49,757 nucleotides of DNA from Gemmatimonadota bacterium (GTDB lineage Bacteria > Gemmatimonadota > Gemmatimonadetes > Gemmatimonadales > GWC2-71-9): NCBI GenBank assembly GCA_003169895.1, contig PNAE01000007.1, positions 225,805-275,561 on the forward strand, given 5' to 3'. Shown piece after piece: positions 2,046-43,740 of the stretch. A program made the position numbers and the translations under genes. The stretch's first letter is position 1; each line of letters begins with the position of its first letter. The notes under the pieces are model-generated. The model made no database searches and was not told the origin of the DNA. It saw only the letters and a program-made list of their open reading frames with translations.

Positions 2046-3083
2046 GTGATCATCAGAGCGGGAGCGCGCGCGTTGTTGCCCGCCCTGCTGGATGAACGTC
2101 ACCCGGGCATCCGCGTCGTGGTCATCGCTGACGACGACGCCGTCGCGGCCCTCGGTTCGCCGCTGCCGGCCGTGCCGCTGTTCACTTTTCCGAGCGGCGA
2201 AGCGCACAAGTCCCGCCAGACCTGGGCCGACCTCACCGATCGATTGCTGGCGGCACGCTACGATCGACATACCGTGATTGTCGCGTTCGGCGGCGGCGTG
2301 GCCTGCGATCTGGCGGGCTTCGTCGCGTCGACCTTCCTTCGCGGCGTGCCGTGGATCGCCGTTCCCACCACCACGTTGGCGATGCTCGACGCCGCAATTG
2401 GTGGCAAGACGGGCGTCGATACGCCGGCCGGAAAGAATCTTGTCGGCACGTTTCATCCGCCGAGCGCGGTCCTCTGTGACCCGTCGGCGCTGCGCACGTT
2501 GCCGGACCGTCACTATCGCGAAGGACTCGCCGAGGCAGTCAAGCACGCCGCCACGCTCGACGCCTCCTTTGGCAAGTGGATACTCGCCCACGCACGCCAC
2601 ATCGCCGCGCGAGAGCCGCGTACGCTCGAAACCCTGATTCGCCGCAGCGTCGAAATCAAAGCCGACGTGGTGATGGCTGACGAACGAGAGACCGACCGAC
2701 GCGCTGTCCTCAACGCCGGGCACACCGTGGCGCATGCACTCGAGAGCGCGACCGACTACGCCATCCCGCACGGCGAGGCGGTCGCCATCGGACTGGTGCT
2801 CGAGACTCGCGTCGCGGAACGAATGGAAGTTGCGCAACCGGGCACGGCGGATGAGATCACCGCCGTTCTCACCCGGCTGGGCTTGCCGATCGCACCGCCA
2901 GCCGACCTCGATCGCGGACGCATCATGAGCGTCATCGATGCCGACAAGAAGAACCGCGCTGGCGTCGTGCACGCAGCGCTCATCGCGTCCTTCGGCAACA
3001 TGGCCCGTGACGGCGATGCCTGGACGCATGCGCTGGATCTCAATGTCCTCCAGCGACTGTTGGAGGCGAACGGTGAACGGTGA
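2046..3083 (+). CDS. aroB: 3-dehydroquinate synthase
   Basis: Second step of the shikimate pathway: converts DAHP to 3-dehydroquinate using NAD+ and a divalent metal, in the cytosol. The 345-residue protein shows the family blocks in order: FPSGEAHKSRQTW, the NAD-binding GGGVACDLAGFVAST, the active-site stretch VPTTTLAMLDAAIGGKTGVD with GKNLVGTFHPP, the metal-ligand segment NAGHTVAHALE, and HGEAVAIG. The start is GTG at 2046. The extreme C-terminus (EANGER) and the TGA stop at 3081-3083 lie inside a heptad repeat array, so the last residues are encoded by repeat units. No other shikimate gene is adjacent. Confidence 0.95.
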   Translation: MIIRAGARALLPALLDERHPGIRVVVIADDDAVAALGSPLPAVPLFTFPSGEAHKSRQTWADLTDRLLAARYDRHTVIVAFGGGVACDLAGFVASTFLRGVPWIAVPTTTLAMLDAAIGGKTGVDTPAGKNLVGTFHPPSAVLCDPSALRTLPDRHYREGLAEAVKHAATLDASFGKWILAHARHIAAREPRTLETLIRRSVEIKADVVMADERETDRRAVLNAGHTVAHALESATDYAIPHGEAVAIGLVLETRVAERMEVAQPGTADEITAVLTRLGLPIAPPADLDRGRIMSVIDADKKNRAGVVHAALIASFGNMARDGDAWTHALDLNVLQRLLEANGER

Positions 3084-3186
3084 GCAGTGAGCGGTGAGCG
3101 GTGAGAGGGACGCATACGTAGTTCGGGGGTGCGTGCCGCCGAGCTTGACGGGCGGCCCGTTTCACCTCTCAACGCTCACTTCTCAC
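3072..3186. repeat. Paired heptad repeat element after aroB
   Basis: Left arm 3072-3109 holds five 7-base units of the GGTGAGC type. Right arm 3159-3186 holds four units of the GTTTCAC/TTCTCAC type, roughly the reverse complement. Between them a shorter stem pairs GCCGCC (3135-3140) with GGCGGC (3151-3156). The aroB stop codon lies in the second left unit. The whole could fold as a long hairpin and may end transcription. Confidence 0.75.
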
Positions 3187-3435
3187 CGACTTAATCACAT
3201 TCGACATCACTGTCGCGACGTTGCAACACTCACCATACAAATGACTTGTCGCGTCCATGCACATCGATGTGGATAGATCGACTGTGGATGATGTGCAGAA
3301 AAACCGCAACAGATGATACCGCAAGTCATTGCAATGTCGACATTTAGAACCTCTTGACAACCCGTCCGCAGTTGCGATCTTGCGCAGGTATTCGCAACCT
3401 CTCCCAAGACAATTCAGCCGCAGAGTGGGCCCCTG
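3084..3435. other. Intergenic region between aroB and the sigma factor gene
   Basis: About 350 bases without a supportable gene. The first 100 bases are the heptad element. From about 3190 to 3350 the sequence is noticeably more AT-rich than its surroundings, as expected for regulatory DNA ahead of the sigma factor gene. A possible promoter is listed separately at 3354-3381. Confidence 0.6.
3354..3381 (+). promoter_or_regulatory. Possible sigma-70 promoter for the sigma factor gene
   Basis: A consensus -35 box TTGACA (3354-3359) is followed after 16 bases by GATCTT (3376-3381), a weak -10 that keeps the important second A and last T. This would give a leader of about 45-50 bases before the ATG at 3436. 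The -35 is convincing; the -10 is not. Confidence 0.4.
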
Positions 3436-4340: not shown

Positions 4341-4418
4341 GACGAGAGACAGCTGAGGCAGTGGATGTCGCGCCGCTCCCGGCTTCTCCCGGTTCTCTTC
4401 TCTCGTCTCTCTTTCTGG
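4341..4418. repeat. Heptad repeat element after the sigma factor gene
   Basis: Five 7-base pyrimidine units (4384-4418), of the TTCTCTC/GTCTCTC type, face a short left arm GACGAGAGAC at 4341-4350. GAGAGAC (4344-4350) can pair with GTCTCTC (4405-4411). The element separates the sigma factor stop from the YgfZ-like start and argues against the upstream in-frame ATG at 4361 as a start. Confidence 0.6.
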
Positions 4419-7393: not shown

Positions 7394-7398
7394 AGATC

Positions 7399-7474
7399 GT
7401 GAAACGTAAGACGTAACACGGAGGCTTCAATCAAGTCGGAGCCTCCCTGTCACGTTTCACCTTTCACGTTTCAC
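7399..7474. repeat. Paired heptad repeat element with central hairpin
   Basis: Left arm: three units of the GTGAAAC/GTAAGAC type (7399-7419). A stem GGAGGCT (7420-7426) pairs with AGCCTCC (7440-7446). Right arm: four units of the GTTTCAC/CTTTCAC type (7447-7474). The element fills the gap between the convergent MoxR and kinase-like genes, reaching into the last bases of the latter, and could act as a two-way terminator. Confidence 0.8.
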
Positions 7475-10684: not shown

Positions 10685-10779
10685 CGGAACGCGATCCGCG
10701 TCGAACCAGCTGAATCCGACCTTGGCAAGCTCGCCGGCGTCGATGAGATCAATGTGAGGATTGTCCCGTCGCCGCGCAC

Positions 10780-10807
10780 TTCACGTCGCTCGTCTCTCGT
10801 CGCTCCT
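10780..10807. repeat. Heptad repeat run at the end of the propeller gene
   Basis: Four 7-base units of the TTCACGT/CTCTCGT type in the gap between the convergent vWA and propeller lipoprotein genes. It touches the TAG stop of the latter (10808-10806). No clear paired arm is seen. Confidence 0.55.
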
Positions 10808-23201: not shown

Positions 23202-24119
23202 TCACCAATCGGCGCGAGGATCCCGCAGCGGCGTCAGACGCGCCTCGATCTCCACCCGGCGCGACGCCAGCATCGGCGGGAGCACCAGTTCGCGACCCAG
23301 CCGTTCGAGTGGCAGGTCGACCGTGAAGCCGGGGCCCTTGGTCGCCAACTCGAACAACACGCCGCTCGGCTCTCGAAAATAGATCGACCGGAAGTAATAC
23401 CGATCGATGATCGGAGTCGATGACACGCCGCCGCGATGCAGTCGCTCGAGCCAGCGTTCGTGATCCGCCGGTTCGGTCGCCCAGGCGATGTGATGCACGG
23501 TCCCGGCCCCCGCTCGACCGGGGAGCGTCGGGGGCGCGTCGTAGGCGATGGTACCGTGCCGGGCTGAGCCGGTCAGTTCCCACCGGTACTCAGTCGGCGA
23601 CGTCGCGCCCATCACCTCTTCCAGCAGCCGCCCGGTGCTGGCGACACGCCCCCCGTAGGCGCGGACTGCATCGAATCCGCAGAGGGCAACTTCCGCCGGG
23701 ATCTCCGGATGCCATGCGACGAGCGGTGCGTCCGGCGACTGGACCGCAACGAGTTCAAGCCCGAGGCCCTCCGGGTCGTCGAAGCGGACCCGGTCCTCGT
23801 GGCGCGTCGTCGCGATCGCGTGGTCGGCGAGGCGACGCTCCCAGAAGCCAAGCGCATCGTACGAACGCACCCGGAACGTGATCCGGTACACCATGCCGGC
23901 CCCGGCGCGGCCCTGTAACGCGCCCGGGTACTCGAAGAAGGTCAAATCGGCCCCGGGAGAGCCACTTTCGTCGGCGTAGAACAGGTGGTAGACGTAGGGA
24001 TCGTCCTGATTCACCGTCTTCGCGACCAGCCGGAGCCCGAGAACGCCGGTATAGAACTCCAGGTTTCCCGGTGCGTCACCGGTGATGCAGGAGATGTGGT
24101 GAATGCCGTCCAGGCGCAT
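23202..24119 (-). CDS. Ring-cleaving dioxygenase, VOC (glyoxalase) family
   Basis: A 305-residue protein with two pairs of beta-alpha-beta-beta-beta VOC modules, related to the MhqO/LinE-type dioxygenases that open hydroquinone rings using Fe2+. The first module begins IHHISCITGDAPGNLEFYTGVLGLRLVAKTVNQDD; the second has GTVHHIAWATE and ends RSIYFREPSGVLFELAT. Metal ligands are probably the His after I-H in module 1, the His of VHHIAW and the Glu of LFELAT. No neighbouring MarR/MhqR gene is adjacent, though a MarR gene lies at 26984. The substrate is not predictable. Confidence 0.85.
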   Translation of the reverse strand: MRLDGIHHISCITGDAPGNLEFYTGVLGLRLVAKTVNQDDPYVYHLFYADESGSPGADLTFFEYPGALQGRAGAGMVYRITFRVRSYDALGFWERRLADHAIATTRHEDRVRFDDPEGLGLELVAVQSPDAPLVAWHPEIPAEVALCGFDAVRAYGGRVASTGRLLEEVMGATSPTEYRWELTGSARHGTIAYDAPPTLPGRAGAGTVHHIAWATEPADHERWLERLHRGGVSSTPIIDRYYFRSIYFREPSGVLFELATKGPGFTVDLPLERLGRELVLPPMLASRRVEIEARLTPLRDPRADW

Positions 24120-24524
24120 GGCGGAAACTAGCTAGGGGCCTGGGAGCCAAGGGCTGGCAGCTTGGGGCTGGGAGCTGATCACACTATCGTCGGCAGTCCA
24201 GGTGGAACGTCGGCACCGGTACTATCGGCGTCCAACTCCCAGCGACCGGCCCCACCCCCCATTGCGCAAATGCGCCCGGGGCGCTTCATTTGTAGTCTAC
24301 GATCGCCACGTGCCATTCCGGCATCTTGGAAAGATTTCAGGGGAACGCTATCAGGGGATCGGCGTTCAGCCGGTCCCCTGTTGAGTTTCCTGATCGTGCG
24401 TACCAGCGGCAAATCGCCGTGAGTGCGGAAATCGACCCGGCGCGAGGGTTTGATCGCGAAACTGTAGTCGGTCGCACGGCATCGTCCGGACTCCGATTAC
24501 ACCATCATTCAGGAGCAGGACAGC
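24120..24524. other. Intergenic region between VOC and cold-shock genes
   Basis: About 400 bases without a gene. It contains a CTGGGAG heptad element (24140-24174) and, near 24352-24378, a hairpin pairing AGGGGA-CGGC with GCCG-TCCCCT around a GTTCA loop. The rest ahead of the cold-shock gene probably holds its promoter and long leader, as is usual for this family, but no clear -35/-10 pair was found. Confidence 0.5.
24140..24174. repeat. Heptad repeat run, CTGGGAG type
   Basis: Five 7-base units: CTGGGAG, CCAAGGG, CTGGCAG, CTTGGGG, CTGGGAG. CCAAG (24147-24151) can pair with CTTGG (24161-24165). It starts about 20 bases before the VOC gene start (minus strand). The same unit type occurs at 12547-12595. 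Confidence 0.65.
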
Positions 24525-24737
24525 ATGCGTACAACCGGCACAGTGAAGTGGTTCAATGACGCGAAGGGCTTTGGCTTCATCACCCCCGAGAACGGTGAAA
24601 AGGATTGCTTCGTTCACCACTCGGCCATCCAGGCCCAGGGCTTCAAGTCGCTTTCCGAAGGGGAGCGCGTCGAGTTCGACATCGTCCAGGGCGCCAAGGG
24701 CCCGGCGGCGGAGAACGTCGTGAAGCTCGGCCGCTAA
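24525..24737 (+). CDS. Cold shock protein (CspA family)
   Basis: A 70-residue single OB-fold protein that binds single-stranded RNA or DNA and melts RNA structure. RNP1 is KGFGFITP and RNP2 is CFVHHSAI, preceded by [10 protein letters not shown]. It matches family length exactly. An AGGAG site lies 12 bases upstream of the ATG. It is followed by a perfect 16-base stem terminator (24773-24808), so it is a single-gene transcript. The long upstream region with a hairpin fits post-transcriptional control. Confidence 0.96.
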
Positions 24738-24772
24738 GGCCAAGCCCGTTGCGGCCTTCGGGCCACGACGCC

Positions 24773-24808
24773 AAATGGCCGGCTCACCTCACGGTGAGCC
24801 GGCCATTT
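24773..24808. terminator. Perfect-stem intrinsic terminator after the cold-shock gene
   Basis: A 16-base perfect stem (24773-24788 with 24793-24808) around a TCAC loop, GC-rich in the core with AAAT/ATTT at the base and a short T run after it on the plus strand. It lies between two convergent genes and could end transcripts from both. Confidence 0.85.
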
Positions 24809-24822
24809 TGCTTCAGCAGCAC

Positions 24823-26364
24823 TCAGACTTCCCAACCGGGGTGGTAAGGCGGTTTGAGATACTGATTCGCATCGGGCGCATTCGTGACGCTCATGCTGGC
24901 GGCGTCGTACAGGATCTTCTTCCCCTGGCCCGTGCGCAGCGCGACAATGCCGAGGAGCATGGTTTCGGTGAGGCCGGCCGCATATTCGAACGGTGAGGTC
25001 GCCTTGCCGTCGCCCTTGCAGGCCTGGGCCCAGTTCATTTCGTGCGACACGGTGATCCGCGGATACGTCTGCGCCACCGATGCGGTCTTTTCCATCAGGT
25101 CATGCGGGAAAAGCTGCGGCCGTTGACCGTACGTCTCATGCAACAGCACCCCCTTCTCTCCGATGATGAATACTCCGCCTTCGGCGTTGAGCGCCACATC
25201 ATCGGGAAGTACCGCCGGGCGCGGTGGGTACAGGCCGCCGTCGAACCAGCTCAGGCGCACCGGTGGCTGCTTGCCGCGCGCGGCGAATTCGTAGTGCACC
25301 GTCATCGCGAGCGGATAGGACGCCGGGTTACGCGACCCGCCGCCCCAAGGGGTCGAGGTCGCTTCAATGCTGGTCGGCGCGCCCAGTCCGAGCGCCCAGT
25401 ACGGATGATCGATCAGGTGCGCACCCATGTCGCCCAGCGCACCGACACCGAAGTCAGTCCAGCCGCGCCAGTTGAACGGGTGATAGATCGGATGGTACGC
25501 CACGTCGTGCGCGCACGGCGCCGTGTACAGCTCCCAGTTGAGCGACGGTGGCGGCGAATAGTTCGCCGCCCACAGGCCTTGCGCGATCAAGTTGGTGATG
25601 TCCCCGCGTCCCCATTCCGGCGCACCTGCCTGCAACTTTGGGCTGCCGGGCGCGTAGACATCCGGCGTCGTGGGTGCTGCCTGCAACGACGGCACGGGTC
25701 GAGTCGGGCGCGGCACGCCCTGCGGCCAGATCGGCCGATTGGTGTACACCTGCACCTCGCGCACCGGTCCGATCAGTCCGGCCTGGATCCATTCATTGAT
25801 GAGCCGTGCGTCGTTGCTGGAGTGACCCTGGTTGCCCATCTGCGTGACAACGCCGCTGCTCTTGGCGAGATCCCGGAGGGTGCGCGCCTCGTACACGGAA
25901 TGCGTGAGCGGCTTCTGGACGTAGACATGCTTCTTGAGCTGCATCGCCGACTTGGCGATGATCGCGTGCGCGTGATCGGGCGTCGCGACGACCACGCCAT
26001 CAATGTCCTTCTGCTTGTCCAGCATCTCGCGGAAGTCCGCATACCGCCGCGCCACCATGAATCGGTCGCGCAACTTGAGGGTGTTCTCTCCCGGGTCCTT
26101 GCCCCCGGTGATCCTCAGGCGGTCGGCAAGCTGACGGTCGACGTAGCCGAAATCGACATCGCAGAGTGCGACGATGTTCTGGCTCATCAGGTTGGCGGCG
26201 TTCTCCATTCCCTGGCCGCCGCAGCCGACGATGGCGACGTTCAGCGTGTCACTGGGCGCCTGAAAACCACGCCCGAGCACGTGGCGCGGGACGATCATGG
26301 CGCTGAGCGCCACGTTTGCCGTGCCGGCGACGAAGTCGCGCCGGCTGACCTTGCGAGATGACAT
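24823..26364 (-). CDS. Tat-exported Gfo/Idh/MocA family oxidoreductase
   Basis: A 513-residue NAD(P)-dependent dehydrogenase of sugar or inositol type. The twin-arginine signal is [16 protein letters not shown]. The dinucleotide fold follows: [18 protein letters not shown]. The family motif usually EKP is QKP here ([11 protein letters not shown]), a variant common in the secreted group of this family. The substrate domain includes [15 protein letters not shown], with the catalytic-type His-Asp. The C-terminus has [19 protein letters not shown]. It likely binds its cofactor before export. The substrate is unknown. It stands alone between a terminator and the large heptad palindrome. Confidence 0.9.
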
Positions 26365-26411
26365 GGGAATCCACCCGGAGTTGATGGGAGCGACGGAAAG
26401 CTACGACAAAG

Positions 26412-26528
26412 GACGAGAGGAGAGAAGAGAGACGAGAGAAGAGAGACGAGCGAAGCCAACCGTTCCGTCAGGGCCCCAACCAACGAGCCGGTTTCTCTCG
26501 TCTCTCGTCTCTCGTCTCTCGCGTCTCC
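26412..26528. repeat. Large paired heptad palindrome, GAGAGAC/GTCTCTC type
   Basis: Left arm 26412-26453 has six purine units (GACGAGA, GGAGAGA, AGAGAGA, CGAGAGA, AGAGAGA, CGAGCGA). Right arm 26494-26528 has five pyrimidine units, four of them exactly TCTCTCG. The arms are reverse complements over about 35 bases and enclose a 40-base loop. It lies between the PH-domain gene stop and the oxidoreductase gene, and is the longest and cleanest copy of the family in the window. Confidence 0.85.
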
Positions 26529-26531
26529 CCC

Positions 26532-26987
26532 TTATCCGCCATCGGTCGCCGCCTGCACTGCCTGGCGAAAGTCCAGCGGTGACTGGATGCCGTCGAACGG
26601 CTCCTGGGTCCCGCCGCTGCCGGTGACCACGATCTCGCCGAAGCCGAACATCCGGCCCCAGAGGCTCTGCGTAACCGTGATGCCCTCGATCTTCGGGAGC
26701 AGCAACTCCATTGACCGGGTCGTCGTCACGCCGAGCTTGATGATGACCCGCTTGTTGGTCACGGCGAACTCGGAACTCCGGCGCCGGATCCATGCCGCGA
26801 GCAGCAGGATGAGCGCGATCACGACCGGGGGGATCGCCAGTGGCTTGCGATCGGCCGACATGGCCCAGAGTGCCAGTGCCACCAGGACCAGGCACCCCAG
26901 GACCGGCACCACGAAGATCTTCCAATGCAACCGGGTCCGGTACGTCACGACCTCACCGGGCAACAGGTGCCGGTCGATGTAGCTCAC
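26532..26987 (-). CDS. Bacterial PH domain (bPH_2) membrane protein
   Basis: 151 residues. Two membrane segments (WKIFVVPVLGCLVLVALALWAM and IPPVVIALILLLAAWI) are followed by a small PH-like beta domain: EFAVTNKRVIIKLGVTTTRSMELLLPKIEGI, typical of DUF304/bPH_2. The end has GFGEIVVTGSGGTQEPFDGI. Its role is unknown, perhaps membrane stress. Its ATG overlaps the MarR stop as ATGA, so the two are coupled. Confidence 0.85.
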   Translation of the reverse strand: MSYIDRHLLPGEVVTYRTRLHWKIFVVPVLGCLVLVALALWAMSADRKPLAIPPVVIALILLLAAWIRRRSSEFAVTNKRVIIKLGVTTTRSMELLLPKIEGITVTQSLWGRMFGFGEIVVTGSGGTQEPFDGIQSPLDFRQAVQAATDGG

Positions 26988-27439
26988 GGCGTCAGCGCTG
27001 CCAGCGCCCTCGCGAGCGCGGCCCGGTCGGCGGGAGGCAGCGCCGCCGTGAACCCTTCCCTGACCTTGGCCAGTTGGCGCGCTCCTTCGGCCTGTCGCTC
27101 TTCACCCAGACGCGTCACCGACGCAAGCACGCTCCGACGGTCGCTCGCGTCATCGATCCGGCGGACCAGCCCATCCGCCTCGAGCCGGTCGACCAGCTGT
27201 GTCATGTTGGAGCGCACGCAACTCAGCCGTGCCGCGAGTTCGCTCAACGGCAACGGTTCACGCGCTTCAACGAGCTGGGTCAGGACGCCGAGCTTCGACA
27301 TCGACAGACCCACCTGGCCCAGCGCGCGCTCAAGCCGGTCCTCGAGCGCGTGTGCGGCGCCGAGCAGCGAGAACATGACTTGTTCCGCGCCAGGCGAGGT
27401 GGCCGGCGCGCTCTCGGTCGGCACCTTGAGACGATTCAT
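26984..27439 (-). CDS. MarR family transcriptional regulator
   Basis: A 151-residue winged-helix repressor or activator. The DNA-binding part runs LSMSKLGVLTQLVEAREPLPLSELAARLSCVRSNMTQLVDRLEADGLVRR, followed by the wing IDDASDRRSVLASVT. The flanking helices for dimerisation are present. The start ATG is at 27439-27437. A promoter with TTGACG and TATCGT lies so close that the predicted transcript starts at or next to this ATG, so the mRNA may be leaderless. A near-palindrome TTCATATGTGAA covers the start codon and -10, suggesting autorepression. It is coupled to the PH-domain gene. Confidence 0.9.
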   Translation of the reverse strand: MNRLKVPTESAPATSPGAEQVMFSLLGAAHALEDRLERALGQVGLSMSKLGVLTQLVEAREPLPLSELAARLSCVRSNMTQLVDRLEADGLVRRIDDASDRRSVLASVTRLGEERQAEGARQLAKVREGFTAALPPADRAALARALAALTP

Positions 27440-27446
27440 ATGTGAA
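27435..27446. promoter_or_regulatory. Probable MarR operator at its own start codon
   Basis: TTCATATGTGAA is a 12-base palindrome with one mismatched pair. It covers the marR start codon and touches the -10 box. Autoregulation is usual for MarR proteins. Confidence 0.5.
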
Positions 27447-27474
27447 CGATACGGTCCGGGGCGGATGACGTCAA
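27446..27474 (-). promoter_or_regulatory. Promoter of the marR gene, giving a leaderless mRNA
   Basis: TTGACG (27474-27469), a 17-base spacer, then TATCGT (27451-27446) on the minus strand. The A of the ATG is the seventh base after the -10 box, which is where transcription should start. Confidence 0.6.
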
Positions 27475-27560
27475 GCCATCGGCCGTGCTCACTTGAGCGT
27501 CACGACTCCGAACGCGATGAGCAGCACCCATGAAACATGCGGGTATGAGTGACGGACTTT

Positions 27561-28295
27561 CTATGGTTCCGGGTTCCGGGTCCACGATCCGTACATCGGG
27601 TTCGGCAGCAGGAAGTATCGCAAGCCGAAGTCGGCGTACTTGCCGGGGACATCCCGGATTGACTGATTCAGATCGGGAAAATCCTGGATGTTGTCGCCCA
27701 GCCATTCGACGACGTTGAGCGGCGGGATACCGGGAATAGCGGTGCCTTGCTGGATGCGTTGGAAGCGGGGATTCTTGTCGCTCTCCGCGCGCGGCTGACA
27801 CAGCACGATGTCCGCCTCGATGCCGACGCTGCGAAGATTGTCCCGCGTCGGCGCGCACAGGGAATCAGCACGGTTGGTCACGATCGCGACCCGGCCGCCG
27901 AGCGCATGCACCTGACGCGTGAAGTCCACCGCCCCCGGTACGGCCGTCGCCGCCCGCTCGCGAACCCAGCGGGTCCATTCGGCTTCCGTGAAGCCTTCGT
28001 TGCGGTCTGCCAGCCGGTGTTCGTGCAGCGAGTTGTCGAGGACCGTTTCATCGGCATCGAGGATCACCGCCCATGACCCCGCGGCGCGGCCGCGCGCGAG
28101 ATCCGTCAGGTGGGCCGTCGCCGTGCGATAGACTTCGATGGCAATGCCACGGTACTCGGCCGATGACCGGAACCAGTGGATATCGTTCCGGGCGGGCGGT
28201 ACCGCGGCGAGCTTCGGTGCAGGACTGGTCGTGGGATGCGGCGCGCAGGCTGCTATCGCCAGCACAGCGAACAGACCAGCCGCCCGATGGCGCAT
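27561..28295 (-). CDS. HAD-superfamily acid phosphatase lipoprotein (class B/e(P4)-like)
   Basis: A 244-residue lipoprotein. The signal MRHRAAGLFAVLAIAAC ends at a lipobox Cys. The HAD motif I is AVILDADETVLDNS (DxDxT) and a second motif GRVAIVTNRADS follows, then EWLGDNIQDFPDLNQ with the metal-binding Asp residues. This matches the outer-surface acid phosphatases/5'-nucleotidases of the e(P4) group, which release phosphate from nucleotides. The ATG at 28295 starts just after the ferritin-like stop; a GTG at 28310 would overlap it. The C-terminal TRNPEP is encoded by ACCCGGA heptads (27565-27585). Confidence 0.85.
   Translation of the reverse strand: MRHRAAGLFAVLAIAACAPHPTTSPAPKLAAVPPARNDIHWFRSSAEYRGIAIEVYRTATAHLTDLARGRAAGSWAVILDADETVLDNSLHEHRLADRNEGFTEAEWTRWVRERAATAVPGAVDFTRQVHALGGRVAIVTNRADSLCAPTRDNLRSVGIEADIVLCQPRAESDKNPRFQRIQQGTAIPGIPPLNVVEWLGDNIQDFPDLNQSIRDVPGKYADFGLRYFLLPNPMYGSWTRNPEP
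27565..27585. repeat. Short heptad repeat in the 3' end of the phosphatase gene
   Basis: Two exact units and one altered unit of GGTTCCG (plus strand), that is ACCCGGA on the coding strand, right before the TAG stop. The C-terminal residues of the phosphatase are thus built by the repeat. Confidence 0.45.
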
Positions 28296-28299
28296 CACG

Positions 28300-28794
28300 T
28301 CAGCTGCCACCCTTGACCCGGCTCAGGTTCGGCGGATCTTCGCCGAGCGCGGTGGCGAGATCGGTCAGGTGTTCCTGCTCCTGCTTGAGGATCTCGCGGA
28401 TGTGCTCGGCCATGGCGTATTCCTCGAGCGCCTCGCATTGCTTGATGCGCGCCCGGTACTGCAGGATGGTCTGCCGCTCGTTGTCGAGGTCGAATCGCAG
28501 CATGTCCCTGGCCTTGTCCGACGTCCTGACTGGCTTGGGTACCACCGTCGGGTCGCCACCGAGGTAGTCGATCTGCTTCGCGATGGTGATCGCATGCTGG
28601 AGTTCCTCGCCGGCATGCGCCTCGAGCTCCGCCGCGATCGACATGTATTCGGCGCCCTTGAGCACCTGCGAGTACACCACGTAGGCGATGATGGCCTGGT
28701 ACTCCCGCGCCAGGTCCTGATTGAGCAGCTCGATCAGTTGCGCCCGCGACACGGGTGACGCATCAGGCGGGGGCGATGAGGATTTTGTCGCCAT
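28300..28794 (-). CDS. Ferritin-like domain protein (bacterioferritin-type)
   Basis: A 164-residue four-helix protein. Iron-ligand candidates: Glu31 in DLAREYQAI, Glu64 and His67 in EELQHAI, a Glu in the DNERQTIL helix, and EQEHL near the C-terminus, fitting a di-iron site. The helix spacing is that of ferritin-like/DUF892-type or Dps-related proteins used in iron storage or peroxide defence. It is the first gene of a pair with the acid phosphatase, whose start follows its stop by four bases. Confidence 0.85.
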   Translation of the reverse strand: MATKSSSPPPDASPVSRAQLIELLNQDLAREYQAIIAYVVYSQVLKGAEYMSIAAELEAHAGEELQHAITIAKQIDYLGGDPTVVPKPVRTSDKARDMLRFDLDNERQTILQYRARIKQCEALEEYAMAEHIREILKQEQEHLTDLATALGEDPPNLSRVKGGS

Positions 28795-28944
28795 GGGTTC
28801 CCTGTCCTTTCAGGAAGTCGTTGCTGTGGCAGAAAGGACGCTCACCGGGGCTGCACTCGCACCATCAGCCCGGCGCGCGCCGCGGCCGTGGCAATGTCGC
28901 ACTTCTCGCAAGCCGCCTGCATCTCGAGCGTGATCGGTCGTCGT

Positions 28945-30627
28945 TCACGACAACAGCCGCCTGAGCATGTCGACGTTAACGGGCTTGGTCAGGTGGTGAT
29001 CGAAGCCGGCCTCCAGGGACCGGGCACGATCCTCCTCGCGGGCATGGCCGCTGAGCGCCACCAGGAGCAGGTCACGGCGGCGCCGCACACGCAGCTCGGC
29101 GGCCACTTCGTATCCGTTCTTCCCGGGCATCTCGATGTCGAGGATCACCGCGTGCGGCTCGAATTCCCATTCCAGCCGCAACCCCGCGGCGGCCCCCTGT
29201 GCCGTGCGGACGTCGTGGCCCCACGATCGCAGCAGCATGGCCAGGCTGTCGGAAGAATCGACGGAGTCGTCCACGATCAGCACGCGCTCGCGGCGGCGCG
29301 GTTCGCGCACGCGCTGGCCGTCGGCTCGCCGGGCGGTCCGCTCACCCACTGCAGCATCCGGGGCATCGAGCACCGGAAAGCGCGCCTCGAACCCGTTGTC
29401 GTGCGCGGCGCCGACGCTCATTGTGGCAACTCGACCGCCGTGCATCTCGGTCAGGTTGCGGGCCAGCGTGAGGCCGATGCCATGGGCCTCGGCTTGGTTG
29501 CGCGGCGCACCCGTGGGAGCCGCGCCCACGTCGGAATCCTGAGACGCCCATCCGGATGCGACGCCGTCGGTGTCGCTCGATACCGTGATCGTGGCCTCGC
29601 CGCCATCGCGCGTCACCCCGAGCCATACCTGGCCGCCGGCGAGAGTGCGCCGTGCCGCGTTGGTCAACAGGTTCGTGACGATCTGCGACAGTCGCGTTGC
29701 ATCGCCTTGAACCCAGATCGGCGCGTCGGGCAGCGTGACGCTGATTTCACGGCCGTATTCCGCAATCGCCGGCGCCGCGGCTTCGCGGCCCATGCGCACC
29801 GCGCTCACCAGGTCGGTCCGCTCAGTGCGCAGTTCCAGCGTACCGTGACCGATGCGCGACACGTCGAGCAGGTCCTCGGCGAGTCGGGTCACCTGCGCCA
29901 GCTGGCGCTGCACCACACCGCGCGCACGTTCGTGGTCGCGATCCAGAGGGACAGTGAGCGTCAGATACTCGACCGCATTGCTCATCGCCGCCAGCGGATT
30001 GCGCATCTCATGGCTCAAGACCGCGAGGAACTCGTCCTTCCGCCGGCTCGACTCGCGCAGCTCCTCGACGATGCAGAACGCCTGGTACCCAGCCGCCGCG
30101 ACCTTGCTGAGGTTGGTTGTCAGTCGCGCGTCCTCGGCGTCGAACTGGTGCTCCCGGTCGTGCGACGTTATCCAGAGCGTGCCGGCCACCTGGCCGTCAA
30201 TGCTGAAGGGCGTAACCAGCATCTCGACGATCGGCGGCTTCAACTCGGCGAGGTAGCGGAAATGGCGCTGCGGACGCGCGAAAAGTTGCACCGAATTGCG
30301 ATCGGCCGCGACTGCCTCCGGTGAGGCGTCCGGTGGTGCGAGGTTCCAGAGATTGTCGCGGAGCGCCCCGGTCACCGCATGCCAGCGAAACCGCGGCTTC
30401 TCGTGCCGGCGCTCGAGAATACTCACGCCCGCGGAGCCCGCCCCGCAGAGATCGAGCGCAACCTCCACAACGCGCTGCAACAGGTGCCGTGACGGGTCGC
30501 CCATCTCTTCCACGAGCCGGAGCAACGCCTGCTGCTCACGCTCGAACTCTGGTGCCCGCGCCGGCCGAGCCGCAAGCTCGTTCGTGACGATCACCGACTC
30601 GAGTGGCGGATTATCAGCGGGCATCAT
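28945..30627 (-). CDS. Hybrid histidine kinase: GAF, HisKA, HATPase, receiver
   Basis: A 560-residue cytoplasmic sensor kinase. A GAF domain spans about residues 35-190. The phospho-accepting helix is LAVLSHEMRNPLAAM with His206. The ATPase has the N box NLLTNAARRT, and HGIGLTLARNLTEMHGG as G2; the G1 box (DTDGVASG) is degenerate. A receiver domain follows from about residue 445 (VLIVDDSVDSSDSLAMLL) with the phospho-acceptor Asp497 in LDIEMPGKNG and the late Lys in HHLTKPVN. There is no membrane segment. The start ATG overlaps the M14 peptidase stop as ATGA, an unusual coupling of a sensor kinase to a secreted peptidase gene. No separate regulator is adjacent. Confidence 0.9.
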   Translation of the reverse strand: MMPADNPPLESVIVTNELAARPARAPEFEREQQALLRLVEEMGDPSRHLLQRVVEVALDLCGAGSAGVSILERRHEKPRFRWHAVTGALRDNLWNLAPPDASPEAVAADRNSVQLFARPQRHFRYLAELKPPIVEMLVTPFSIDGQVAGTLWITSHDREHQFDAEDARLTTNLSKVAAAGYQAFCIVEELRESSRRKDEFLAVLSHEMRNPLAAMSNAVEYLTLTVPLDRDHERARGVVQRQLAQVTRLAEDLLDVSRIGHGTLELRTERTDLVSAVRMGREAAAPAIAEYGREISVTLPDAPIWVQGDATRLSQIVTNLLTNAARRTLAGGQVWLGVTRDGGEATITVSSDTDGVASGWASQDSDVGAAPTGAPRNQAEAHGIGLTLARNLTEMHGGRVATMSVGAAHDNGFEARFPVLDAPDAAVGERTARRADGQRVREPRRRERVLIVDDSVDSSDSLAMLLRSWGHDVRTAQGAAAGLRLEWEFEPHAVILDIEMPGKNGYEVAAELRVRRRRDLLLVALSGHAREEDRARSLEAGFDHHLTKPVNVDMLRRLLS

Positions 30628-33600
30628 CTCGGATCCAGTTTCCGGCCGGCGTCAAGGTGGTCGAAATTGAGCAGCGTGTTGAACACGAGGAAATAACTGC
30701 CGATCGTCTGACCACGATAGATGGGGTTGTTCGCGAACAGCACGACGTGGCCCTTCTCCAGCGGCGCATCGACCACGACAGGCCGCTGGGCGATCTCGCT
30801 GCCACCGTCGAGCAATCCTGACACCAGCAGGTCGTGCTGGTCGCTGAAGCGCAGCGCCACGCGAGGCCGCTGGTTCGGCGGAATGATGTAGAGCGGGTTG
30901 CGCAACTCGTTGTCGGTAACCGGCGCGAGTTGCCATGGCTGCACCGGCTGGCGCGTCGGCGCTTCGAATCGGGGGTCGAGCGCCGGCCGTCCCTGCACCA
31001 CGTCCGCATCGTCGGGCGTGCCACGGCCGGTTGCCCGGCTGGCGCCGGCGCCGCCACCGCCGCCGCCGCCGCGCCCGCCGCGGGAGTTGCTGACACCAAA
31101 ACTCTCGCCGCTCTCGCTGTAGACCGCGAGGCTGTCGGTGACGCCGTAGACGATCGGACTGGCATCATCGACGATCCTGGTGCGCAGCAGGCTGCCGACG
31201 ACCTTGCTCCGGGCTGTGTTGCTGCTGACACCGTTGGTCATGCCGAGCGAGATGGCGAACTCGGCACTGTTGCTGACGCCGATGAACACGCCTCCACGCT
31301 TGACGAAATCCTGCAAGTGCTGCACGCCATCATATCCCAGACCCGGCCGGATGTCGTCGGTCTGCGCCCACGTGCCGATGTTGGGCGTTTCTGGTGAATT
31401 CTTCCACGGCATCGGATTGCGCCACATCGGCATGCCTTCGATGACCCCCTGCGCGCCACCGCCGCCCGGGCCGAAAATCACGACGTCATACTTCGCGTTG
31501 AGGTCAGCGTCCTTGGCCACGTCCTGCACGCTGATGTAGTCGTACGGGATGCGGAGCACGTCGAACGCCTGCCGCCACCACCCTTCGGTCTCGGTGGCGT
31601 CCCAGGTGTGCATCATCGCGACGCGCGCCGCACGCAACGGGTGGGTCTTGACCGACGGCGCCGTGTCCAGGGCGTGGGCCTGGAGGCCGAGTTCGCGCGT
31701 TGTCCTGTCGAGATCTTCTGCCGACACATTTCGGATAATGAACGAGCCGCGGTTGTACTTGATGCCACCGGCAGCGAACGGCTCTTCCGCTGCCTGGAAG
31801 TCGGCGCTCTTCAACTGATAGCGCAGGGTTGCGAGGGCGTTGTCGGCGTCATGATTGATCGCGAAGACGCTACCGGTACCGGTGACGCCACCCGGTGCGC
31901 GGACGTCGCCGGTCACGCGTTCCATCCGGGCGTCGAGCACCGCGGGATCGGTGATGCGCACGGCCTGCACCGCAAAGCTCTCCGGAAACGTCCATCCGGT
32001 GTCGTCATAGGGCTGCTTCTGCGGGTCGGTCGGGCTCCAGTACTGGTAATCAAGCAACGCGTCCGCGATGCGCGAGTATGGCTGGTCCATCCGGATGACG
32101 TAGCTGCCGGCGGGAAACTGCCTGGTCGCCTTCACCATCGCGGTATCGACCGCTGCCGGGGCGGTGGCGCGCCCCGCGGCGGCGGTATCGGCTTCCGCTC
32201 CGCCCCGTCCGCCGCTACCGCGAGCGGGCTTTCTGGCGGGGAGGGTCACGCTGAACGGTTCGGTTGCGCGCGAAATCTCGACGTGCTGCTTTTGCAGCAC
32301 GCGCAGCAGGTCGGCCTGCGCACCCGGCCGGGGATCGCTCGCCGGCAGCACATACGCGGCCGGTCCCTCTGTGCGCGCCTTCGCGATCGAGCGCTTCGAC
32401 TTCTGGTAGAAATTGTCGAGGAACAACCGGTGATTGTCGGCGAAGTAGTTCAGCGAGACCAGGATACCCGTCTCTTCGTAGTTGTTGTTGTCTCGCATCG
32501 ACCATTTCACGTGCGGCAACGGCGGGTTCTGCCGATACCAGGTCCGCTCCGTCTCCCTCGGCGACAGCGTTCGATCCATCGTCTCCGCGGTTCCACCGTT
32601 GCCGAAGGTCTCGTACAAGCGTGAAATACCGTTGTGCGTTGCAGCCATGAACATCAGGTAGCCTGGCGACCAGGTATCGAAATCACCGTGCGCGAATACA
32701 CCGGGCATCCCGAACCGGGTCATTTCCTGCACGTTGTTCCACCCGATCATCTGCCATTCGTTGCTCAGCAGCGGGTCGAGCCAGGCGTTGTATGGGCCAT
32801 CCCCGACGGTGTTGTCGTAGAGGAATGCAACCGACTCGTGCAGGTCGTGCAATACCTGCGCGTTCCAACCGAGGTAGGTGTCGAGCACGTTCTGCGACAG
32901 CTTGAGGGTAAGGGCCATGGCGTCGCGATTGTTGTCATGCGCGACATAGTGGCCCCAGTAGATCAGGCTTGGCGCGGTCTCATTGGGATGCTTGACGTGC
33001 CAGTTGTACAAGTCGACCATCCGATCGCGGCCGTCGACTTCGACTACCGGCGTGATCAGCGTAATCAGGTGATCACGAATGTTCCTGACATAGGGGCTTT
33101 CGTCCACGGCGATCCGGTACGCCAGCTCCATCAGCGCCGAGGGCGCGCCGGCTTCGGTGGAATGGATGGCGCCGGTGATGTAATAGACCGGCGCGGTGTT
33201 CTCGGCGATACGTGTGGCCTCGGCGTCATCCATCCCTATCGTCCGGGGATCGGCAAGCTTGGCGAGGTTGGCCCTGTTCTGGTCGAGCCTGGCGAAGATC
33301 GCTTCCGATGCCACCGCGACCGCAATCATCTCACGGCCTTCTTCGGTCGTCCCGATGGAATACACTCGCACCCGCGGGCTGGCCTTGGCCAGGGCGCGCA
33401 TGTAGTCGTACACCTCTTTGGAGTATGCGAGCTTGTTGGGAGAGCCGGCGATGTCGCCGAGCGTCGCCTTGGGTGTAGGCACCGTCTTCGACGCGGGCAG
33501 GTAGTCCACCAGGGGCGACAGGAAGAACGACTCCGTGGTGTACTCGCGGATCTTCTGGGTATATGCCGAATCAATGGGTTGCTTCGGATCGCGTCCTGGC

Positions 33601-33704: not shown

Positions 33705-33837
33705 GTCAGGCCTCGAGCGAGGTGGATGCCAACGAGATCATGGCCTATAGAATAAGCGCTCGCGCGACAGCGCGGTCGCCACGCGGTCACCGACTGTGCG
33801 ACGAGGTCATCCATGAACGCAAAGATACGAAAAAACC

Positions 33838-36483: not shown

Positions 36484-36486
36484 CGC

Positions 36487-36828
36487 TCAACTTTCCGGCT
36501 GCAGAACTCGCGACACCACGTCGACGAACGCCCGCCACTCGGCGGTCTCGAGGCGGAGTTGCTTGCGACCCGCCGGCGTGAGCTTGTAGAACTTGGCCTG
36601 GCGCCCAAGCTCGGACGTTCCCCATTCGCTCTCGATCCAAGCGCGCTGCTCCATGCGATAGAGCGCCGGGTAAAGCGAACCCTCTTCGATCGTCAGCGAG
36701 TCACCGGTGGTGTCCTCGAGCCACCGCGCGATGGCGTAACCATGGCGCGGGCCCCAGGTGAGAGTCTTGAGGATCAGCACGTCAAGCGTGCCGCGGAGGC
36801 GGTCCTTCGAACCGGGCGTCATTGGCAT
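36487..36828 (-). CDS. PadR family transcriptional regulator
   Basis: A 113-residue winged-helix repressor. RGTLDVLILKTLTWGPRHGYAIARWLED is the DNA-binding helix-turn-helix, then TIEEGSLYPALYRMEQRAWIESEW, and the wing and short dimer helix. It is directly upstream of the ADOP permease, a standard arrangement in which PadR represses the permease. A strong palindrome at 36830-36850 lies over its promoter and start region, and its GAGG ribosome site is inside that palindrome. Confidence 0.93.
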   Translation of the reverse strand: MPMTPGSKDRLRGTLDVLILKTLTWGPRHGYAIARWLEDTTGDSLTIEEGSLYPALYRMEQRAWIESEWGTSELGRQAKFYKLTPAGRKQLRLETAEWRAFVDVVSRVLQPES

Positions 36829-36829
36829 G

Positions 36830-36850
36830 TTACCTCGATTGTCTAGGTAA
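36830..36850. promoter_or_regulatory. Probable PadR operator
   Basis: TTACCTCGA (36830-36838) and TCTAGGTAA (36842-36850) form 9-base arms with one mismatch around a 3-base centre. It overlaps the -10 box, the predicted start of transcription and the ribosome binding site of padR. An extra half-site ACCTAGAC lies at 36864-36871. Confidence 0.65.
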
Positions 36851-36877
36851 TATGCCGGACGAGACCTAGACTGTCAA
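36849..36877 (-). promoter_or_regulatory. Promoter of the padR-ADOP operon
   Basis: On the minus strand TTGACA (36877-36872), 17 bases, CATATT (36854-36849). The -35 is perfect and the -10 matches four of six. The operator overlaps the -10. Confidence 0.6.
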
Positions 36878-38687: not shown

Positions 38688-38698
38688 CTTTAGCGCCG

Positions 38699-41689
38699 AT
38701 GCCCGACCATCCAGTCGCCAACGCTCCGCTCGCGCGCCAGCTCCCGGTCCATACCGACTTCACGCCATCCCAACCCGGCTACACCCGCGCCCTTGTCGAT
38801 GAGCTTCGCGAAGCGATCGCCGGCGACGTGCGCTTCGACACCGGCAGCCGGGCAGCGTGGTCCACCGATGCGTCGAACTACCGGCACGTGCCGATCGGCG
38901 TGGTCCTGCCGCGAACCGCCGACGACGTCGTCCGAACCGTGGCGCTCTGCCGCAAATATGGCGCGCCCATCACGTCCCGCGGCGCCGGCACGTCACTCGC
39001 CGGGCAGGCGTGCAATGTCGCGGTGATCATCGACTACTCCAGGTATTACAATCGCGTCCTGGAGATCGATCCGGTGCGGCGCATCGCCCGCGTCGAGCCG
39101 GGATGCGTTCTCGACGACCTGCGGGCACAGGCGAGCCGGTATGGCCTCACCTTCGGGCCGGATCCCGCTACGCACAATCGCAATACCCTTGGCGGCATGA
39201 TCGGCAACAATTCCTGCGGCACGCACTCCGTGATGTCGCAGTTCTACGGTCCCGGTCCGTTGACGCGTCATCAGGTGATCGACCTCGAGGTGCTGACCTA
39301 CGACGGCGAGCGCTTCACTGTCGGTACGACGAGCGACGCCGAGCTGGTGGCGATCATCGCCGCGGGCGGCCGGCGCGGCGCGATCTATCAAGGCCTGCGC
39401 GACCTGCGCGAGCAGTGCGCCACGGAGATCCACCGCCGGTTCGTGGATATCCCGCGGCGCGTGTCCGGGTACAACCTGGACGCCCTGCTCGCCGAGAATG
39501 GATTCAACGTCGCGCACGCGCTGGTCGGCACGGAGGGCACGTGCGTGGTGGTGCTGAGTGCTACGGTGACACTGATTCCGGACAAGCCCGCACGCACGCT
39601 GCTCGTTCTCGGATACCCGGACGCCTTTCAGGCCGCCGATCACGTCCCGGTGATCATGGCCCACCAGCCGGTGGGGCTCGAGGGGATGGACGGCGTCCTG
39701 GTCGATCTGATGCGCAAGCGGCAGTGGCATCCCGACCAGGTTGCGATGCTTCCTCCCGGCGACGGCTGGCTCCTGGTGGAATTCGGCAGCGATACCAAGG
39801 CGGATGCTGACGCGCAGGCCAACCGACTCATGCGCACGTTGGCGCCACACGTGGACGCGCCCTCGATGTTCCTCTGCGACCACGACGACGACGCCAGGAA
39901 GTTCTGGGAAATCCGCGAAGCGGCGCTTGGCGTGTCCGCACACCCGGCGGGAACGAAACCTGCCTACGAAGGGTGGGAAGATGCCGCGGTCGCCCCGGAG
40001 CGGCTTGGTGCCTACCTCCGCGATCTGCGCGCGTTGCTTCACGAATTCGACTACCACAGCGCCATGTACGGCCATTTCGGCCAGGGATGCGTGCACTTTC
40101 GCATCAATTTCGACTTCGAGAGCGTTGCCGGCATCGAAGCGTTTGGGCGCTTCCTCGAACGGGCTGCGGACCTCGTCGTCTCCCACGGCGGATCGATTTC
40201 TGGTGAGCACGGCGACGGACAGGCGCGCGCCGTGTTCCTGGCGAAGCAGTATGGCGAAGACCTGGTGCGTGCGTTCGAGCGCTTCAAGTGGCTCTGGGAT
40301 CCCGACAACCGGATGAACCCGGGCAAGGTCGTGCATCCGCGCCGACCCGATCAGGATCTCCGCATCCATCCCGGCTACGCCGACACGCAGCTCGAGACCC
40401 ATTTCGCTTATCGCGCCGACGGCGGATCGTTTGCCAGGGCGGCTGCGCGGTGCGTCGGCGTGGGCGCATGCCGGCGTGGTGCTGGTGGCACGATGTGTCC
40501 GAGCTACATGGTGACCCACGAGGAGGTAGACTCGACCCGCGGCCGCGCACGCCTGCTGTTCGAGATGATCGAAGGCGACGTGCTCACCGATGGCTGGCGG
40601 AACGAGCACGTCAAGGACGCGCTGGATCTCTGCCTCGCCTGCAAGGGATGCAAGAGCGATTGCCCCGTGAACGTCGATATGGCGACGTACAAGGCCGAAT
40701 TCCTCTCCCACTACTACGAGGGGCGCCTGCGACCCCGCGTGGCGTACGCCATGGGCTGGATCTACTGGTGGGCCCGCGCGGCCGCGCCCGTCGCGCCGCT
40801 CGTCAACTTCTTCACCGGGACACGTCCGTTCTCGTCGGTCGTGAAGGTGATCGGCGGCATCGCGCAGGAACGTTCCATCCCACAGTTCGCTTCGCCGACA
40901 TTCCGATCGTGGTTCCGCCGCCACAAGAGAGGCGGCAATGGCAAGCGCCGCGTCATCCTCTGGCCGGACACGTTCAGCAACTACCTGCACCCGAACGTCG
41001 CGATCGCGGCGGTGGAGGTGCTCGAGCACGCCGGGTTTGCAGTCGACATCCCGCGGCGCCCGCTCTGCTGCGGCCGTCCGCTGTACGACTGGGGCATGCT
41101 CGACACCGCGAAGAACCTCTGGCGCCAGACGCTGGACACGTTGCGACCCGACATTCGCAGCGGCGTGCCGATCATCGGACTCGAGCCGAGTTGCGTCGCG
41201 GCATTTCGTGATGAGCTCTGCGGATTGTTTCCAGATGATGACGATGCCCGGCGCCTGGCGCAACAGACGTGGATGCTGAGCGAGTTTCTCGCGAAAGAAG
41301 GATATCAACCCGCCCCACTGCACCGCCGCGCCGTGGTACATGGCCACTGCCATCACAAGGCGGTCATCGGGATGCAGGCCGAAGAGCGGATGCTGCAGGC
41401 ACTCGGACTGGACTACCAACTCCTCGATTCCGGCTGTTGCGGCATGGCCGGATCGTTCGGGTTCGAGCCGCACAGGTATGACGTGTCCGTGAAGGTGGGC
41501 GAACGAGTGTTGCTGCCGGCGGTACGCGCCGCCGATCGGGACACGTTGATCATCGCCAACGGTTTCTCGTGCCATGAGCAGATTGCGCAGCTGACCGGGA
41601 GGGCGCCGGTGCATCTCGCGGAGGTGCTGCGAATGGCGTTGGAAGACGTGAAAGGTGAGAGCCAAGCGGTGAAAGTGGGCGCAACGTGA
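38699..41689 (+). CDS. FAD- and Fe-S-binding oxidoreductase (GlcD-GlcF fusion, YdiJ/Dld-like)
   Basis: A 996-residue fusion that oxidises a 2-hydroxy acid such as D-lactate, glycolate or D-2-hydroxyglutarate. The N-terminal FAD_binding_4 domain has PITSRGAGTSLAGQA and GGMIGNNSCGTHS; the FAD-oxidase C domain has MYGHFGQGCVHFRINF and GSISGEHGDGQAR. Two 4Fe-4S motifs follow (CVGVGACRRGAGGTMCPSY and CLACKGCKSDCPVN), then two CCG domains (CCGRPLYDWG; SGCCGMAGSFG). E. coli YdiJ has the same order. The last residues, about VKGESQAVKVGAT, are encoded by GTGAAAG heptads and the TGA lies in one. The ECF42 gene is 11 bases upstream. Confidence 0.93.
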   Translation: MPDHPVANAPLARQLPVHTDFTPSQPGYTRALVDELREAIAGDVRFDTGSRAAWSTDASNYRHVPIGVVLPRTADDVVRTVALCRKYGAPITSRGAGTSLAGQACNVAVIIDYSRYYNRVLEIDPVRRIARVEPGCVLDDLRAQASRYGLTFGPDPATHNRNTLGGMIGNNSCGTHSVMSQFYGPGPLTRHQVIDLEVLTYDGERFTVGTTSDAELVAIIAAGGRRGAIYQGLRDLREQCATEIHRRFVDIPRRVSGYNLDALLAENGFNVAHALVGTEGTCVVVLSATVTLIPDKPARTLLVLGYPDAFQAADHVPVIMAHQPVGLEGMDGVLVDLMRKRQWHPDQVAMLPPGDGWLLVEFGSDTKADADAQANRLMRTLAPHVDAPSMFLCDHDDDARKFWEIREAALGVSAHPAGTKPAYEGWEDAAVAPERLGAYLRDLRALLHEFDYHSAMYGHFGQGCVHFRINFDFESVAGIEAFGRFLERAADLVVSHGGSISGEHGDGQARAVFLAKQYGEDLVRAFERFKWLWDPDNRMNPGKVVHPRRPDQDLRIHPGYADTQLETHFAYRADGGSFARAAARCVGVGACRRGAGGTMCPSYMVTHEEVDSTRGRARLLFEMIEGDVLTDGWRNEHVKDALDLCLACKGCKSDCPVNVDMATYKAEFLSHYYEGRLRPRVAYAMGWIYWWARAAAPVAPLVNFFTGTRPFSSVVKVIGGIAQERSIPQFASPTFRSWFRRHKRGGNGKRRVILWPDTFSNYLHPNVAIAAVEVLEHAGFAVDIPRRPLCCGRPLYDWGMLDTAKNLWRQTLDTLRPDIRSGVPIIGLEPSCVAAFRDELCGLFPDDDDARRLAQQTWMLSEFLAKEGYQPAPLHRRAVVHGHCHHKAVIGMQAEERMLQALGLDYQLLDSGCCGMAGSFGFEPHRYDVSVKVGERVLLPAVRAADRDTLIIANGFSCHEQIAQLTGRAPVHLAEVLRMALEDVKGESQAVKVGAT

Positions 41690-41736
41690 AACGTGGCGGC
41701 CCTCTCACCTCTTACCTCTCACGTCTCACGCCTTAT
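41648..41736. repeat. Paired heptad repeat element at the end of the GlcD-GlcF gene
   Basis: Left part 41648-41692 has GTGAAAG, GTGAGAG, GTGAAAG and GTGAAAC units, with some spacing changes, inside the coding end of the gene. Right part 41702-41736 has five pyrimidine units of the CTCTCAC/GTCTCAC type. The TGA stop (41687-41689) is inside the last left unit. Confidence 0.75.
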
Positions 41737-43613: not shown

Positions 43614-43623
43614 CAGAAGGAAC

Positions 43624-43725
43624 GAGCGAGAGGTGAGAGGTAAGCGGTGAAAGGGACGGCGGCTTCGTGAGGAGCCGCCTTCCTTCTTACCTTTCACCTT
43701 TCATCTTTCACCTCGCACTTCTTCT
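43624..43725. repeat. Paired heptad repeat element with hairpin
   Basis: Left arm 43624-43658: purine units GAGCGAG, AGGTGAG, AGGTAAG, CGGTGAA, AGGGACG. Inner stem GGCGGCT (43658-43664) with AGCCGCC (43673-43679). Right arm 43684-43725: six pyrimidine units, mostly CTTTCAC. It lies between the M28 peptidase and the MprF-like gene. Confidence 0.8.
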
Positions 43726-43740
43726 TTCGTACCTTACAGC

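Follow-up and report, generated by a model that had tools for sequence, protein, structure and literature searches.

The palindrome at positions 26412-26528 of the window (the whole stretch of 49,757 nucleotides of Gemmatimonadota DNA that was analysed) lies just past a stop codon, its purine-rich arm is transcribed first, and its stem is predicted to be very stable. It belongs to a family of 7-nt (heptad) repeats found at gene ends, in gaps between tandem or convergent genes. We interpret the elements as gene-end (3'-UTR) RNA hairpins of a lineage-wide family that would act as terminators or 3'-end protectors, with slippage operating in each arm and unit type matched between arms, and assign this reading a probability of about 0.55. 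The contig that includes the window is 1.85 Mb long, and the whole genome, labelled G000, is 3.42 Mb at 98% completeness.

Structure of the element

An inverted-repeat search of the window recovers the palindrome at 26415-26528, with 39-nt arms that are 85% complementary and lie 32 nt apart (Table 1). Tandem Repeats Finder reports 5.9 copies of 7 bases at 26415-26455 in the purine arm and 4.0 perfect 7-base copies at 26494-26521 in the pyrimidine arm. The sequence, the coordinates and the four exact TCTCTCG units described in the initial annotation are confirmed. Of the five pyrimidine units counted there, four are exact and the fifth (26522-26528) matches TCTCTCG at 4 of 7 bases; the loop, given as 40 bases, measures 32-37 bases, as set by where the stem closes. 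The element had also been called the longest heptad palindrome, which holds among heptads of its kind, its score of 48 being the top among five purine-first stems overlapping heptad arrays in the window, but a longer and less complementary inverted pair (46 nt, 78%) is located at 13717-13809. The latter palindrome consists of GAGCCNT-like heptads and lies at a distance of 4 nt from the stop codon of gene 13814-14503; it thus represents a second, unrelated heptad family within the window.

Since the element is located between two minus-strand genes, the transcript of the PH-domain gene runs from its stop codon straight into the stem, and on this strand the 26490-26528 arm is the first, purine-rich one. 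The two arms differ in their variants, one having four identical units and the other alternating two variants. The hairpin far exceeds chance: the transcribed strand folds at -74.3 kcal/mol (z -6.22) and the other strand at -67.9 kcal/mol (z -6.15), and in neither case were any of 200 shuffles equally stable. No Rfam family matched at gathering score across the whole window; microRNA models matched far below the gathering score, which reflects a long hairpin. A plain 22-bp hairpin without heptads was observed at 24767-24814, 8 nt past the stop codon of the oxidoreductase gene; gene ends with and without heptads are thus present side by side.

Table 1. Coordinates of the palindrome, its flanking genes and other heptad elements in the window
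Feature	Position	Strand	Details
Purine-rich arm	26419..26457	+	units GGAGAGA AGAGAGA CGAGAGA AGAGAGA CGAGCGA; tandem array 26415-26455
Loop, 32 nt	26458..26489		without significant hairpin of its own (z 0.37)
Pyrimidine-rich arm	26490..26528	+	four exact TCTCTCG at 26494-26521
Pyrimidine-rich tail beyond the stem on the transcribed strand	26405..26418	-	TCTCGTCCTTTGTC
Upstream gene, bacterial PH domain (PF03703)	26532..26987	-	stop codon 3 nt from stem
Downstream gene, GFO/IDH/MocA oxidoreductase (PF01408)	24823..26364	-	
Heptad hairpin after gene 2046-3083	3078..3188		both arms of other unit type in the G001 ortholog
Heptad hairpin between convergent genes	7398..7468		
Heptad hairpin	41643..41734		stem overlaps end of gene 38699-41689
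Heptad hairpin	43616..43728		GC-rich core hairpin (43658-43679) in loop
Pyrimidine heptad array, tandem gap	4385..4412	+	without clear stem
Pyrimidine heptad array, convergent gap	10779..10806	+	without clear stem

Repeat period and unit families

Among tandem arrays of at least three copies in 87.6 kb of G000 intergenic DNA, period 7 is represented by 86 arrays, period 6 by five, period 14 by three, and periods 8-13 and 15 by none. Mononucleotide shuffles of the same DNA contain no period-7 array, and periods 4 and 5 (18 and 12 arrays) stay at the shuffle level. The period-7 excess is shared by the genomes G001 (32 arrays) and G004 (23 arrays), and is absent by the same intergenic census from G007 (one array), G043 and G027 (none in either). 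In unselected stems of G000, G001 and G004, arm identity peaks at lags of 7 and 14. The repeats comprise several unit families, namely CGAGAGA, CGTGAGA, GGTGAAA, GATGACG, TAGAGAC, GAGCCAT and AACAAGN, across which the 7-nt step is kept and the sequence is not. Neither strand of the commonest units in canonical rotation (ACGAGAG, ACCTCTC, ACGTCTC and AAAGGTG) contains three consecutive G.

Abundance, location and polarity

The 14-mer TCTCTCGTCTCTCG occurs 137 times in the G000 genome and its reversed control does not occur at all. In 850 kb of G000 we identified 98 heptad arrays (19 in the reversed sequence) that constitute 71 elements, and in 639 kb of the same-genus relative G001, 51 arrays (17 reversed) that constitute 33 elements; judging by the reversed counts, about one fifth of the G000 arrays and one third of the G001 arrays may be due to chance at the threshold used. 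Stems were selected by a score of at least 24 and overlap with a heptad array, a criterion that favours complementarity. Edge and in-gene elements were dropped from the stem analysis and, for the wobble count, divergent and convergent elements as well.

The 71 G000 elements are distributed over tandem gaps (42), convergent gaps (22), divergent gaps (5) and genes (2). Of 49 convergent gaps, 18 contain heptads, compared with 37 of 244 tandem gaps and 5 of 78 divergent ones (convergent versus divergent, p 2.7e-5; tandem versus divergent, p 0.053), and this preference was reproduced in a count on about half the sample. A stop codon is no more than 15 nt from the stem end in 41 of 53 cases for G000 and in 14 of 17 for G001, and a start codon is equally close in 5 of 31 and 5 of 13, respectively, by gene calls from a codon-usage caller trained on G000 without annotation, with which some stop and start distances are probably wrong. 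The stop codon is often inside the first heptad unit, e.g. TGAGACG. Within genes, stems with a score of at least 24 are rare (2 of 337 windows).

All clear stems in G000 (42 of 42) and in G001 (22 of 22) start with the purine arm, 64 of 64 in total, as do the 11 stems examined in G003, G009, G333 and G008. An inverted pair reads alike on both strands, and hence the purine-first order belongs to the element itself and does not depend on which strand is read. In stems picked blind to heptads (score of at least 30) the bias is strong but not absolute: purine-rich to pyrimidine-rich first arms number 34:1 of 45 stems in G000, 16:1 of 22 in G001 and 17:0 of 20 in G004.

Not every element is a hairpin. 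A clear stem is lacking in 29 of the 71 G000 elements, which are single-arm or stemless, and, among 11 elements from G003 loci picked for their long arrays, in 9. Nor is a core hairpin present in every loop, as had been expected: some loops include a GC-rich hairpin (43658-43679) and the majority do not, with z below -1.5 in only 9 of 44 loops, the loop at 26412-26528 not among these. By eye, the pyrimidine arm shows no tendency to be longer in tandem elements. When 45 loops were compared with each other by BLAST, the matches inspected, which are not all of the matches, were mostly leftover heptads or a separate repeat. This separate repeat, TCATCCTGAGCG...GAAGGAYC (and GTCACCCTGAGCGCAGCGAGGGGGCGG), builds long palindromes at gene ends that are at times nested in heptad hairpins, and was observed at loci L010, L160, L211, L213 and L218 and at G004 loci L241-L250.

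Probable slippage and coupling of the arms

Similarity is higher between adjacent units than between units three apart (0.834 versus 0.785; 55 arrays, p 5e-6), as predicted by slippage. The two arms have different copy numbers in 29 of 42 pairs, and these numbers show no correlation (rho 0.22, p 0.16, 42 pairs). Because stem selection favours complementarity, the coupling of unit types was recomputed on separately detected arms (26 elements in G000 and 16 in G001). In G000 the arms are coupled at the unit's A/T position (r 0.85, p 1e-4). Coupling with p < 0.01 is also seen at position 6 (0.66) and position 4 (0.42) and for X=G (0.75) and X=C (0.63), and is absent for X=A (p 0.053) and at position 7 (p 0.76). 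When the stems chosen for complementarity were used instead, position 4 was uncoupled (r 0.07). In the 16 G001 elements, only the A/T position is coupled (r 0.96, p 0.012). A mirrored order of the unit variants has borderline support (17 nested, 8 reversed, 17 ties, p 0.054). Uncorrelated numbers together with coupled types indicate that the number drifts in each arm, as slippage predicts, and that the type moves in concert.

Comparison of 201 orthologous genes of G000 and G001 revealed an element in both genomes at 10 gene ends, in G000 only at 11, in G001 only at 11 and in neither at 169; the 10 shared elements compare with 2.2 expected from 21 and 21. At 4 of the 10 shared loci (gene 2046-3083, L205|13, L210|5 and L213|6), both arms have a different unit type between the species, the classes being assigned by reading. 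The difference at L144|10 is similar with one arm weak, L211|10 is a mosaic with mirrored order in G000, and in the remaining four, including the element at 26412-26528, the unit type is unchanged or unclear. A comparison of ortholog gaps between adjacent gene pairs provided 14 gaps, few of them informative.

At the end of the PH-domain gene, the element in transcript orientation has four purine (R) and five pyrimidine (Y) units in G000 (R4/Y5) and R5/Y3 in G001, and its loop differs between the two genomes. In both genomes the arms are unlike at the variable unit position; thus, a change in copy number is seen at this locus and there is no evidence of correction. Expansion by slippage, proposed in the initial annotation, agrees with this variation between species, with the likeness of neighbouring units and with long near-perfect arrays in relatives (R18, Y14 and R12). 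Its further proposal, that a correction process must act between the arms, is supported across the family for unit type, which is coupled and differs in both arms together between species, and has no visible counterpart at 26412-26528. It is not supported by copy number, which is uncorrelated between the arms, nor by the many G003 and G164 arrays that have no partner arm. The word "must" is also too strong. Template switching, known for quasipalindromes in E. coli (PMC7202029), would produce a concerted change of type; selection on the stem combined with slippage might do so too, as might loss of the entire element followed by its regain.

Terminator-like features

Rho-independent bidirectional terminators have a stable stem past the stop in convergent and tandem gaps, with the purine-rich side first and a T-richer tail. 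The element at 26412-26528 has such a stem, 3 nt from the stop. Across the family, the T content is 0.33 next to the stem versus 0.22 further on (n=70, p 2e-8), an excess to which unpaired heptads perhaps contribute in part, and 9 of 70 tails have five or more T in the first eight positions. In contrast to terminators of this kind, the stem is much longer and built of heptads, and a clear U-tract is found in few elements (the same 9 of 70). Position, polarity, stem stability and the T-richer tail fit terminators or mRNA 3'-end hairpins, and it is from this fit that we infer the function.

Signals of selection at the RNA level are weak. On the transcript strand, G.U outnumbers A.C by 41:26 in G000 (p 0.043) and by 8:6 in G001 (p 0.40). 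The transcribed strand is the more stable one in 26 and the less stable one in 15 of 42 tandem elements in G000 (p 0.056), and in 8 and 6 of 14 in G001 (p 0.16); 144 control gaps have no strand stability bias (62 and 82). A simple terminator scan of 24001-44000 found 7 sites versus 9.5 in shuffles and did not flag 26412-26528.

We also considered whether, in species without heptads, a plain stem persists at the corresponding gene end. Individual cases were found but no overall signal, stems at gene ends that lack the element in one species being no better than elsewhere (10 versus 115, p 0.35), and the idea was not retained. At the convergent ortholog pair L144/L196, a plain hairpin is present in one species and a similar hairpin flanked by heptads in the other.

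Distribution in other genomes

Matches to the 14-mer were found in 8 of 61 genomes searched (own included), seven of the eight belonging to the same genus. A degenerate 21-mer matched 13 of 395 Gemmatimonadota genomes, spread over 6 of 138 genera. Its reversed control matched six genomes, five of them with 1 to 5 matches and one, G164, with 122. The latter genome belongs to a different family of the same order, and its 122 matches represent the heptad unit AGAGTGC/GCACTCT. In 20 stretches around listed G164 matches (L293-L312), selected for long perfect arrays, we found 22 elements: 8 convergent, 12 tandem, 1 divergent and 1 at an edge. A sense-strand purine array lies within 20 nt of a stop codon in 16 of the 22, and a stem with a score of at least 24 includes the array in 3 of the 22, the other 19 being single-armed. 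Thus, place and polarity recur with another unit, and the inverted partner is often absent. This prevalence of single arms lowered our confidence in the hairpin reading to the 0.55 given above.

The 21-mer TCTCTCG x3 was found in at least 119 stretches of other genomes. No inverted partner was detected within 160 bases in 108 of the 119 listed stretches, and these single arrays were for that reason not counted as the same element. Purine and pyrimidine arrays occur together in the other 11 listed stretches, of which at least four are from Gemmatimonadota and one, from Sorangium (L096), is pyrimidine-first.

Several G001 contigs start or end in heptad palindromes (L165, L166, L170, L171 and L188), and in the palindrome at L170, 68 of 68 aligned bases are paired. 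These contig ends are possible assembly breaks or fold-back artefacts.

Comparison with known heptad repeats

The closest known system is the GGGAATC heptads of Xanthomonas, for which the published account (PMC4692102) describes 7-nt tandem units that are mostly intergenic and under-represented between divergent genes, a purine-rich strand that is sense within 50 bp of a stop or antisense upstream of a gene, and 70 and 75 convergently oriented pairs in two genomes. The Gemmatimonadota elements share with it, as far as it is described there, the heptad, the stop-proximal sense purine strand, the inverted pairs and the scarcity in divergent gaps. In Xanthomonas, one G-rich unit is read as a G-quadruplex former, and transcripts start or stop oftener at the quadruplex-forming set than at a control set, the authors leaving the function open (PMC4692102). 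In contrast, the main Gemmatimonadota units lack G-tracts, having no run of three G, a single genome can hold several unit families, and the difference between species affects the two arms at once.

According to PMC4679880 and PMC4692102, a 2007 survey of long simple sequence repeats in prokaryotes found heptamers to be the commonest class in most genomes and proposed slippage, with 7 nt as a possible polymerase footprint. By this type of measure the Gemmatimonadota heptads belong with those repeats: intergenic 7-nt tandem units exceed neighbouring periods. They also have paired arms, a gene-end position and arm coupling, of which the passages on the survey in these two papers give no description. 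The TAACTGA heptamers of marine Beggiatoaceae (PMC4679880) likewise form many intergenic arrays, but these are described as direct repeats of one unit located largely just upstream of start codons. In a search that mostly excluded subscription journals and preprints, no title or abstract opening in the literature on repeats, Gemmatimonadota, terminators, slippage and quasipalindromes describes the present elements.

Proposed mechanism and alternatives

In the mechanism that we favour, the heptad hairpin would either terminate transcription, in both directions where genes converge, or protect the 3' end of the mRNA, and tandem heptads would replace or extend the tracts flanking a terminator. 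Heptads may be gained and lost by 7-nt replication slippage, separately in each arm, and the unit type may be carried between the arms by template switching in the hairpin, kept matched by selection on the stem, or both. The same observations could arise without any function if the heptads were neutral satellites that spread by 7-nt slippage where this is harmless, mainly past stops, and obtain their partner by template switching. A period of 7 whatever the unit sequence, common single arms, unequal copy numbers and high turnover (22 of 32 element-bearing orthologs have the element in one species only) all agree with such neutrality. It nevertheless leaves the strict purine-first polarity (64 of 64) unexpected, together with the persistence at the same gene ends above expectation and the preference for convergent over divergent gaps, although promoters may bar divergent gaps; we consider it rather unlikely. 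Still less probable, in our view, is that the signal resides in the sense-strand purine array past the stop (and the pyrimidine array before the next start), e.g. as putative sites for a single-strand-binding (cold-shock) protein, with the palindrome being secondary. CspB is described as binding heptamer repeats with one protein per heptamer (PMC4679880), and stop-proximal sense purine arrays in G164 (16 of 22) are far more frequent than stems with an array (3 of 22), G003 being similar. Against binding to an array, the unit sequence varies freely and, in elements that have both arms, the arm types are coupled, which suggests that the stem matters. Arrays without stems (9 of 11 in G003) mean that an array does not always need a stem, and leave both of these alternatives to the hairpin some probability.

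Transposase-mediated insertion of a mobile palindrome (REP/BIME or MITE) would also explain many dispersed, REP-like intergenic palindromes at gene ends. The Y1 transposase domain (PF01797) was detected in 11 of 17 genomes, including the heptad carriers G001, G008 and G333, but not in G000 (98% complete), G003 (86%) or G009 (80%), and a transposase origin is accordingly not favoured. The loop at the 26412-26528 locus that differs between G000 and G001, as well as the unit number and type that vary from copy to copy, also speak against insertion, making this origin very improbable.

Significance

That heptamers are in excess among the repeats of bacteria is a long-standing observation, with no accepted cause according to PMC4692102 and PMC4679880. 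Here, the excess is tied to one place (past stops), one polarity (sense purine) and often one structure (hairpin), in a phylum distant from that of Xanthomonas, and the units are unable to form the G-quadruplexes proposed there. This suggests that the stop-proximal heptad architecture does not depend on G-quadruplexes. A broader and tentative idea, which we regard as doubtful at present, is that a fixed 7-nt-step process, independent of the unit sequence, may be continually rebuilding gene ends in several bacterial lineages: slippage would act on the purine-sense side by the stop, the type would be copied to the inverted partner by template switching, and hairpins would change in concert with place and polarity kept. 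Orthologs in which both arms are of the other unit type provide a natural test of inter-arm copying versus compensatory selection.
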